This document shows positions 22,218-26,475 of a stretch of 29,250 nt of DNA, piece after piece. Positions within the stretch are counted from its first letter, which is position 1; each line of letters begins with the position of its first letter. Origin of the DNA: a virus; IMG/VR virus record IMGVR_UViG_3300023176_000862, positions 1 to 29,250 of that record; one strand, 5' to 3'. The translations under genes and the position numbers were made by a program. The notes under the pieces were generated by a model, which was given only the letters and a program-made list of their open reading frames with translations, was not told where the DNA came from and made no database searches.

Positions 22218-22502
22218 ATGATTCTATGCTATCAAGATAACGAAGTTCGTCGTTCAACGAAACCTTTTTACGCAGAAGACTATAATGCTAATCATATGAT
22301 TTGTAAGCACTTAGAAAACTATTTCTTCTTAAAATTCATCCTGATGAAAAGTGATGATATTGTAGAGAAACATCGTGCATCTAAAGAGTTAGACATCTGT
22401 GAGCGTAAGATGAATTATTGGAAACGTCAGAAAAACTTTTGTCAGAAACAATACGAAAAAGACATCAAAATTTGGAGTGAAACATATCAAGTAAATTCTT
22501 GA
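22218..22502 (+). CDS. Small early protein, unknown function
   Basis: This 94-residue protein is basic and helical: NHMICKHLENYFFLKFILMKSDDIVEKHRASKELDICERKMNYWKRQKNFCQKQYEKDIKIWSETY. The C-terminal half looks like a single charged coiled-coil helix. Four Cys residues are present but not in a zinc pattern. It is again a one-gene cassette with its own promoter, and its stop TGA (22500-22502) is again embedded in the next TTGACA. No family is recognised; an early host-interacting role is an inference from the cassette type. Confidence 0.8.
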   Translation: MILCYQDNEVRRSTKPFYAEDYNANHMICKHLENYFFLKFILMKSDDIVEKHRASKELDICERKMNYWKRQKNFCQKQYEKDIKIWSETYQVNS

Positions 22503-22544
22503 CATTTATTTGATAATATAGTAATCTATATATATCAATAATCA
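22499..22544 (+). promoter_or_regulatory. Divergent member of early promoter family
   Basis: TTGACA (22499-22504) overlaps the preceding stop. The best -10 at standard spacing is TAATCT (22522-22527), but TATATA (22527-22532) would place TAATCA (22539-22544) where the others have it. No GAATC is present. It drives the nuclease gene after a longer leader. Confidence 0.45.
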
Positions 22545-22607: not shown

Positions 22608-23192
22608 ATGAATAAACCACTATTTGAAGTGAATGCCGTTACACTTAAAAATGACGGACCATTGAATAAGTTTTTTGCCGACTGCTTAGAACTTCCATAC
22701 AAATCAAATTCACAAGATAACCCAGAACATGAAAACCAAGTTGAAGAACTGTTGAAGAAGCACGGCTTGGAATACGAGTCACAGCCCAATGGTATTCAGA
22801 ACTCACCTGATTTTTATGTTTATTATAACGGCAATCGTTATAGCGTGGAGTGTAAGTCGAGCAAGGGTCATTATCCCGTGTACAATGGTGGGCTACCTAA
22901 GCCCGATGTGATTTATGTTTTCAGTTCAGCAAAATATAACGCAACAACCGTCTTTAATGCAGATGATGTTGTTTCTCCATCAAAGCGTAAGATGTATGAA
23001 ACTTTACTTGAAAAGTATGAAGCAGTATTAGCAGAAATGCGTCAATTACCAGAGTGGTCAGAAGACAAAAGAGGATTTGACTTTTACATGCGGGCAATGT
23101 ATACTCAGAGCGGTGGTGCAGTAAAGACAAATTACTTTACACATGAAGACCGCGCCATGTGTGAACATAACGTATTAGAGCGAGAATATTAA
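22608..23192 (+). CDS. PD-(D/E)XK restriction-endonuclease-like protein
   Basis: This 194-residue protein carries the nuclease core SPDFYVYYNGNRYSVECKSSKG (66-87): P67-D68, then a beta strand and E81-x-K83. A helix with Glu precedes it (HENQVEELLKKHGLEYE), as in type II restriction enzymes. NGGLPKPDVIYVFSSAKYN (93-111) resembles the continuation of that fold in several restriction endonucleases. Its stop overlaps the start of a DNA methyltransferase (TAATG), the arrangement of a type II restriction-modification pair. Cleavage specificity cannot be read. In a phage it might instead degrade host DNA while the methyltransferase protects phage DNA. It has a long leader and a divergent early promoter. 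Confidence 0.72.
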   Translation: MNKPLFEVNAVTLKNDGPLNKFFADCLELPYKSNSQDNPEHENQVEELLKKHGLEYESQPNGIQNSPDFYVYYNGNRYSVECKSSKGHYPVYNGGLPKPDVIYVFSSAKYNATTVFNADDVVSPSKRKMYETLLEKYEAVLAEMRQLPEWSEDKRGFDFYMRAMYTQSGGAVKTNYFTHEDRAMCEHNVLEREY

Positions 23193-24079
23193 TGAACTAT
23201 AACTTACTATGCGGAGATAATGTCGAACTACTAAAAGACATCAAAGAAAACTCAGTTGATTTAGTTGTAACTGATCCTCCGTATGGTATGGATATCGCAG
23301 GTGTTGGGTGGGATAAAGATGTCCCGCCTGATACTACTTGGGAAGAAGTGTTACGTGTTCTTAAACCCGGTGGATGGGCATTAAGTTTTTGTTCACCTGA
23401 GTTGTATCATCGTATGGCGTGTAAAATGGAAGACGGTGGTTTTGATATTAAAGACCAAGTTATATGGATGATTACAACTAAGATGGCTAAAGCAAATAAA
23501 CTAAAGCCAGCACACGAACCTATTGCTGTAGCACAAAAGCCTATTAGTGAGAAAACAATTAAAGCGAATATAGAACGTTGGGGAACAGGTACAATCAATA
23601 TTGATGATAATCGTGTTCCTTGGGAGGGCAAGCCACCGACTGGTTGGGTAAGCGGTGGTGCCAAACGCAGAGCATTCGGTAGTGATGTTACTAAGTCAAC
23701 AGAACAAGAAACTGAGCGTGTAAACGCAAATCCAGATGGTCGTTATCCAAGCAATATAGTAGGACACTTTGACATAGCAGAACATCAAAAGTATTTCTAT
23801 GCTCCTCGTGTCACACGTAAAGAGCGTGGTGAATATAATACACATCCTACACCAAAGCCTATTGACTTGATGCGTTGGTTGATTAATGTATACGCACCTG
23901 GACCAAACTCGGTAGTTCTTGATCCGTTTAATGGTAGTGGTAGTACTGGTATTGCGGCACTACGTTTAGGTCACTCGTATATCGGTATGGACTTGACACA
24001 AGAATATATTGATATCAGTGAACGCCGTATTAAAGATATGGTAGATGATGTAGAAGAAGATATTTTCGATTTTTCTTGA
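23192..24079 (+). CDS. Beta-class DNA adenine/cytosine-N4 methyltransferase
   Basis: This 295-residue enzyme has motif IV DPPYG (28-32) near the N-terminus and the SAM motif I VLDPFNGSGSTG (242-253) near the C-terminus, with HPTPKP (218-223) and GMDLTQEYIDIS between and after. That order defines the beta group, the same group as M.HinfI and CcrM. The middle (130-215) with DDNRVPW, GRYPSNIV and FYAPRVTRKER is the probable target-recognition region. DPPY favours N6-adenine. The recognition site is unknown. It overlaps the nuclease gene and is followed directly by an early-type promoter whose -35 contains its stop codon. Confidence 0.9.
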   Translation: MNYNLLCGDNVELLKDIKENSVDLVVTDPPYGMDIAGVGWDKDVPPDTTWEEVLRVLKPGGWALSFCSPELYHRMACKMEDGGFDIKDQVIWMITTKMAKANKLKPAHEPIAVAQKPISEKTIKANIERWGTGTINIDDNRVPWEGKPPTGWVSGGAKRRAFGSDVTKSTEQETERVNANPDGRYPSNIVGHFDIAEHQKYFYAPRVTRKERGEYNTHPTPKPIDLMRWLINVYAPGPNSVVLDPFNGSGSTGIAALRLGHSYIGMDLTQEYIDISERRIKDMVDDVEEDIFDFS

Positions 24080-24117
24080 CAGATATAGCGAATCACACTA
24101 TATTATATATGTAATCA
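24076..24117 (+). promoter_or_regulatory. Early cassette promoter with GAATC and GTAATCA elements (6)
   Basis: TTGACA (24076-24081), 17-nt spacer with GAATC (24090-24094), TATATT (24099-24104), GTAATCA (24111-24117), then AAAGGAAAGG and ATG at 24136. The -35 contains the stop of the methyltransferase gene. Confidence 0.8.
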
Positions 24118-25776: not shown

Positions 25777-26475
25777 ATGGCAAAAAAACCAGAAAAAAAG
25801 AAAGCACCGGCAAAGAAGGCACCGGCAAAAACTAAAAAGCCGGAAGAGGAAGTAACAATCATCCCTGCTCCAAAGGAACAACCTGCTCCTCCTCCCCCTC
25901 CTCCGGCTCCACAAATGCCGCCTCAACCTAAAAAGCCAGGTGAGATTTTATGGGAGAACGGCGTACTATTCATGGACAAAGAATTCAATCAGGAAAACTG
26001 TATGCCACTAGTGAGAGCAATTATGGAATACAATATGTCACCTGAGGGGCAGCGCCCAGAAGTAATTCATCTGTATATTAACTCACCGGGAGGTGCAGTA
26101 AACAGTGCGTTACATTTAATTGATACAATTAAACAAAGTAAAATACCAGTACATACATATGGTATGGGTATGATTGCATCATGTGGTGTACTACTAATGA
26201 TGTCTGGTGAAAAAGGGCATCGTTATATCACACAAAACACAAGCGTAATGTCACACCAATATTCTTGGGGTTCACGTGGTAAAGAACACGAACTAATGTC
26301 TATTGTAAAAGAGTTTGAACTATCAACAGAACGTATGTTAGACCATTATAAGAAATGTACAGGTAAGAGTGAAGCATATATTCGCAAATACTTGCTACCA
26401 GAAAGTGATATGTGGTTAACTCCCGAAGAGACAGTTAAGCATGGTATCGCAGACCACATCATTCAAACTTACTAG
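25777..26475 (+). CDS. clpP: ClpP-like serine protease with Lys/Pro-rich N-terminal extension
   Basis: This 232-residue protein has ClpP landmarks: YINSPGGAVNSALHLIDTI (100-118), nucleophile S135 in GMIASCGVLL, catalytic H160 in SVMSHQYSWG, and D211 in ESDMWLTPEETVKHGIAD. The triad is complete. Residues 1-55 are unusual: Lys/Ala/Pro repeats (KKAPAKKAPAKTKK) followed by a run of seven prolines, with no signal-peptide hydrophobic core. A ClpP normally works with a Clp ATPase; none is in this window. It sits between primase and helicase, probably on the primase transcript. The target may be a host or phage protein during replication or head maturation, but this is inferred. Confidence 0.9.
   Translation: MAKKPEKKKAPAKKAPAKTKKPEEEVTIIPAPKEQPAPPPPPPAPQMPPQPKKPGEILWENGVLFMDKEFNQENCMPLVRAIMEYNMSPEGQRPEVIHLYINSPGGAVNSALHLIDTIKQSKIPVHTYGMGMIASCGVLLMMSGEKGHRYITQNTSVMSHQYSWGSRGKEHELMSIVKEFELSTERMLDHYKKCTGKSEAYIRKYLLPESDMWLTPEETVKHGIADHIIQTY

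Follow-up and report, generated by a model that had tools for sequence, protein, structure and literature searches.

Methyltransferases encoded by phages are commonly interpreted as solitary enzymes that shield phage DNA from restriction by the host. The locus described here raises the question of whether a phage methyltransferase and the nuclease gene next to it make up a complete restriction-modification (R-M) system. It lies in a 29,250-base virus record (IMG/VR record IMGVR_UViG_3300023176_000862, positions 1 to 29,250), referred to below as the window, in which a nuclease gene, N, is followed by a methyltransferase gene, M (Table 1). The two genes very probably constitute a two-gene type II R-M system of a large tailed phage, in which N would cleave, and M would protect, a site that both recognise. 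What seems to be the matching cutter stands next to this phage methyltransferase and belongs to a nuclease family of unknown function in public libraries.

Genomic setting and gene organisation

The other genes of the window encode a terminase, a ribonucleotide reductase, SSB, helicases and a primase, and no R-M helicases are found among the immediate neighbours of the pair. The replicative helicase, located 2.4 kb downstream of N-M, is nearest to that of the Pseudomonas jumbo phage PA5oct and its relatives (~51% identity). The sequence-only reading had placed the pair in a T4-like early region and had considered it unusual there. The first term is loose, with the helicase nearest to PA5oct; the second is right only in part, as the pair recurs in T4-like cyanophages such as S-SKS1 and S-CAM4. 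A ClpP-like protein of the head-maturation-protease type is encoded between the primase and the replicative helicase (window 25777-26475).

The TAATG overlap previously reported between nuclease and methyltransferase is exact in its coordinates, and both genes are intact and on the same strand. The A at 23192 is common to the stop codon of N and the start codon of M, giving a one-base overlap through which the translation of the two genes is likely coupled, and a GAGCGAG motif just upstream could act as a ribosome-binding site. Judging from promoters known as pattern matches only, N-M looks like one two-gene transcription unit, since the candidate promoter directly after M provides the next gene (24136) with a promoter of its own.

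Promoter-like patterns occur elsewhere in the window as well. The pattern TTGACA-N15-19-TANNNT is observed 16 times against 4.1 expected, and six promoter-like sites on the + strand (12991, 13367, 14399, 21797, 22161 and 24076) have in common the arrangement TTGACA - A[GA][CA]GAATC[GA] - TATATT-like, with TGTAATCA or a similar sequence downstream. The window is poor in GAATC (28 copies on both strands, 64 expected), yet 6 of the 14 copies on the + strand fall inside the spacers of those six sites. GANTC is the methylation site of CcrM.

Table 1. Positions of the N-M pair, its associated sites and the genes found upstream beside relatives of M
Feature	Record	Positions	Strand	Basis
N, predicted type II restriction endonuclease, PD-(D/E)XK fold, PHROG_18119, 194 aa	window	22608..23192	+	
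M, beta-class amino-methyltransferase, 295 aa	window	23192..24079	+	
TAATG stop/start overlap of N and M	window	23190..23194	+	
Promoter candidate, sigma70-like, TTGACA-N17-TAATCT, upstream of N	window	22499..22527	+	consensus match only
Promoter candidate, TTGACA-N17-TATATT, directly after M	window	24076..24104	+	pattern match
Upstream gene beside M relative	L021	521-1369		
Upstream gene beside M relative	L022	2107-2955		
Upstream gene beside M relative	L040	2115-3008		
Upstream gene beside M relative	L073	1286-1960		
Upstream gene beside M relative	L092	1150-1821		

Sequence features and predicted fold of the two proteins

The motifs P67-D68 and E81-C82-K83 are located in the open reading frame of N, bearing out the PD...ECK spacing that had been read from it earlier. 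In an alignment of 50 diverse phage and bacterial homologues, down to 26% identity, the catalytic set E42, D68, E81 and K83 is invariant, and the only other invariant positions are P60, G62, P67, N93, Y103 and R162. In the usual PD-(D/E)XK arrangement, E42 would sit in a helix, and D68 and E81-x-K83 at the central strands. Purifying selection acts on both N and M; between the N genes of the window and of L098, synonymous sites are saturated (pS 0.85) and pN is 0.15. The relatives, the invariant catalytic residues and the selection, all read from sequence, identify N and M as real genes and not chance frames.

The sole family match of N is a PHROG of unknown function (phrog_18119, 3.9e-70 in PHROGs). 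No significant match to a named restriction enzyme family was obtained in Pfam, NCBIfam, PADLOC or the PDB, and searches of the PDB with N, both single-sequence and profile, returned no meaningful match. A profile match to a non-cleaving family, which had been named in advance as a reason to abandon the R-M reading, was searched for and none was found, so the reading is not refuted on this point.

The AlphaFold model of N (pLDDT 91, pTM 0.84) contains a PD-(D/E)XK core. Compared with the PDB by Foldseek, it has PD-(D/E)XK nucleases as its best matches, Hjc, RecU and I-Ssp6803I coming first and EcoRV being weaker, at E-values of 5e-3 and above. The similarity is limited to the common nuclease core (TM ~0.3 by query), and the matches of the model support the fold class, not any family. 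Because the best matches are to Hjc, RecU and a homing endonuclease, N could be taken for a repair or recombination enzyme (Holliday-junction resolvase-like), or for a free-standing PD-(D/E)XK homing nuclease, standing beside an orphan methyltransferase. Orphan methyltransferases are indeed common in phages, and the family of M is large among them, with 1,253 matching phage records. This alternative is nevertheless improbable: by sequence, N matches neither resolvase nor homing families, the N of the window has no match to the Hjc and RecU families in Pfam or PHROGs, and the fold likeness is confined to the common core. The neighbourhood of N homologues, considered below, weighs against it too.

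M carries the motifs TDPPYG (27-32), HPTPKP (218-223) and DPFNGSG (244-250), with a target-recognition region at ~98-215. In the beta class, motif IV comes first, followed by the variable region and then by motif I. This is the order found in M, where TDPPYG at 27 precedes DPFNGSG at 244 with the variable region between them, in agreement with the class initially assigned. M matches the Pfam family N6_N4_Mtase (PF01555) at 3.1e-33, its catalytic and SAM motifs (TDPPYG, DPFNGSG) are intact, and the nearest solved structures are those of DpnA, CcrM and MboIIA-type enzymes. The DPPY motif and these nearest hits indicate that its product is most likely m6A, m4C being the alternative.

An ATP-driven translocase would indicate a type I or III R-M system instead, and N, with its 194 aa, has no such domain. 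The locus combines separate linked genes, intact nuclease residues and fold, intact M motifs and no ATP-driven translocase, as in type II systems.

Association of N with methyltransferases in phages and bacteria

Relatives of N are encoded in 131 IMG/VR stretches and relatives of M in 127, and the counts of their pairing rest on 80 of the 131 N matches and 80 of the 127 M matches, clustered at 90%. The M-seeded clusters number 40, and in 29 of them N is adjacent to M; of the 29 N-seeded clusters, 21 have M within 2 kb of N. A strong N neighbour is missing from ten of the 40 M clusters, and M is absent from some contigs with N, such as G001 (44 kb), the records being fragments in both cases. 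The 72 distinct pairs fall into recurring spacing classes: a short overlap, a gap close to zero, or 1.05-1.5 kb of intervening DNA occupied by a third gene. Unlinked copies on the same contig also occur, in G020, G021 and G022 (L078, L079, L085; L189-L191); the two genes of G021 are ~10 kb apart, with N at 14.0 kb and M at ~24.6 kb. That an N without an adjacent M is always solitary is ruled out by these three contigs, which hold M elsewhere, and that M-only loci always have an N elsewhere is ruled out by the long contigs G008, G010, G014 and G016, which have none. Separately, the M relatives of L023-L029 (64-66% identical) directly follow a clamp-loader-like (RFC-type) gene; a search of their contigs, of up to 86 kb, gave no N, and they are apparent orphan methyltransferases.

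The distance matrices of N and M are correlated (r 0.69, the highest of 2,000 permutations being 0.31), a value to which the shared descent of linked genes adds, so that it backs co-inheritance more than physical matching. This bears on another account of the locus, in which N would be a modification-dependent nuclease acting on modified host or rival DNA and M would serve only to evade host restriction. Such an account could draw on the position of N outside the classical restriction enzyme families and on the use of methyltransferases by phages against host restriction (PMC4190342). It is highly improbable, however, as an N that cut M-marked DNA would destroy the phage, and a matched pair agrees better with the conservation of the pairing and the correlation of the distances.

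To judge by motifs, the cutter seems to be exchangeable beside a conserved M. In the closest M relatives beyond near-identical contigs (L021 and L022, 84-85% identical), the place of N upstream of M is taken by an unrelated protein of 283 aa that carries a VELK motif. In L073 and L092 the proteins beside M differ from N but have PDF and ECK motifs, and the one upstream of M in L040, also with PD-(D/E)XK-like motifs, is strongly diverged. The long-gap pairs present a further variation: one of three third-gene families is found between N and M in 19 of 19 distinct pairs, and all three carry ParB-like motifs (L002:4631-5584, L003:4503-5900, L092:1844-3001 and others). The model of one of these proteins (pLDDT 78, pTM 0.55) resembles, at weak E-values, PadC, which is ParB-like, and the DpnI winged helix. 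The inserted ParB-like, winged-helix protein is perhaps a controller in one subset of the pairs; the window has no third gene between N and M.

Homologues of N of bacterial type were collected from 21 loci, comprising 19 from a genome scan, a Helicobacter record and a Mycoplasmopsis record, and in every one of the 21 the N homologue has a DNA methyltransferase gene adjacent or close by. These methyltransferases belong to three families, none of which is that of M: a gamma-class N6 methyltransferase in 11 Brachyspira loci; an NPPF-type enzyme in Poribacteria, a spirochaete, Nautiliaceae, Helicobacter and Mycoplasmopsis; and a C5 methyltransferase in an Arcobacteraceae genome and in an Epsilonproteobacteria genome (L188), where only a fragment of it is present, close to the end of the contig and one gene from the N homologue. 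Plasmid-borne homologues are found in Mycoplasmopsis only. A nuclease kept beside non-homologous methyltransferases, of four families in all when the phage pairs are included, is what is expected of a restriction enzyme, and not of a resolvase or a homing enzyme. At its end, the record of Helicobacter phage Pt11470_1 (L004:4576-6482) carries genes for cytochromes c1 and b. Part of the record is therefore probably host chromosome, to which the Helicobacter methyltransferase/N pair may belong rather than to the phage; no paper on the locus of this N homologue was found.

The type II R-M layout proposed from the sequence alone is thus supported by the invariant catalytic residues, the PD-(D/E)XK fold and the association of N with M across unrelated phages, and further by their correlated divergence and by the three other methyltransferase families beside bacterial N. 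A broader view can be put forward tentatively, as possible but somewhat short of probable: PHROG_18119 would be an unrecognised restriction-endonuclease family, forming a mobile offensive R-M cassette that is widespread in aquatic T4-like and jumbo phages, in which unrelated nucleases can take the place of the nuclease beside a conserved methyltransferase and, in one subset, a third protein is added.

Proposed mode of action and comparison with known systems

In the proposed mechanism, M would methylate a short DNA sequence, most likely at adenine N6, and N, as a PD-(D/E)XK endonuclease, would cut the same sequence when unmethylated. The virion DNA would already have been methylated in the previous host, so that N could be made at once and act early, without a delay switch and without harm to the phage, and M would keep pace with the new copies of phage DNA. 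This pre-methylation would account for N preceding M and for the apparent lack of a separate controller gene in the window. DNA in the cell that lacks the methylation, whether the host chromosome, that of a co-infecting phage or both, would be cut. As candidates for the target site, the under-represented palindromes of the window, G001, G021 and G022 were rejected: TGCA, AGCT and CATG are low in all four, and none is specific to N/M.

Compatible with the R-M reading, there is an appreciable, if less than even, chance that the pair serves to exclude co-infecting phages and not to break down the host chromosome. Viral precedents exist for either use: chloroviruses recycle host DNA, according to work cited in PMC7253447, and marseilleviruses appear to exclude rivals, their R-M having spared host DNA while being able to cut the DNA of rivals without the system (PMC7253447). 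A review on jumbo phages proposes that phage-encoded R-M acts in such conflicts (PMC7824862), whereas the ribonucleotide reductase encoded by the window phage fits nucleotide harvest. Host-DNA breakdown and rival exclusion fit the present evidence alike, and the pair may have both roles together.

If the R-M reading is true, active weapons directed at the DNA of hosts or rivals are present in many aquatic phages, the cultured cyanophages S-SKS1 and S-CAM4 offer a way to test what phage-borne R-M does, and the N family represents a new source of restriction enzymes. Virus-borne R-M is already known; what is new, relative to Pfam, NCBIfam, PADLOC and the PDB, is the assignment of the N family, together with its breadth in aquatic phages. 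An exact-phrase search of the literature on phage-encoded R-M returned nothing on this family.

Among named viruses, the Synechococcus phages S-SKS1 and S-CAM4/ACG-2014j and the marine virus AG-345-F15 encode N and M proteins that are, respectively, 55-59% and 51-56% identical to those of the window, in the same order and strand, with N annotated as hypothetical or unannotated. They differ from the window at the junction, as the annotated genes of S-SKS1 overlap by about two dozen bases, and in S-CAM4 and AG-345-F15 N is separated from M by a third gene. The type II R-M systems of chloroviruses and marseilleviruses (CviAI-like GATC system, melbournevirus, PMC7253447) are likewise virus-borne, with adjacent nuclease and methyltransferase, although they belong to giant viruses of eukaryotes; they are likened to N-M by gene layout. 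For the Mom-type enzymes and restriction-fold nucleases of jumbo phages, a combination of modification and nuclease against host or rival DNA has similarly been proposed (PMC7824862), but there adenine is acylated and the nuclease is typically fused, whereas in the window the modifying enzyme is a SAM methyltransferase and the nuclease is encoded separately. Finally, the bacterial members of the N family (Brachyspira, Poribacteria, Helicobacter, Mycoplasmopsis and Arcobacteraceae) have the catalytic motif of N and a methyltransferase neighbour in common with the phage pair, but they are about 30-35% identical to N and are accompanied by methyltransferase families other than that of M, so that the target bases or sites probably differ.
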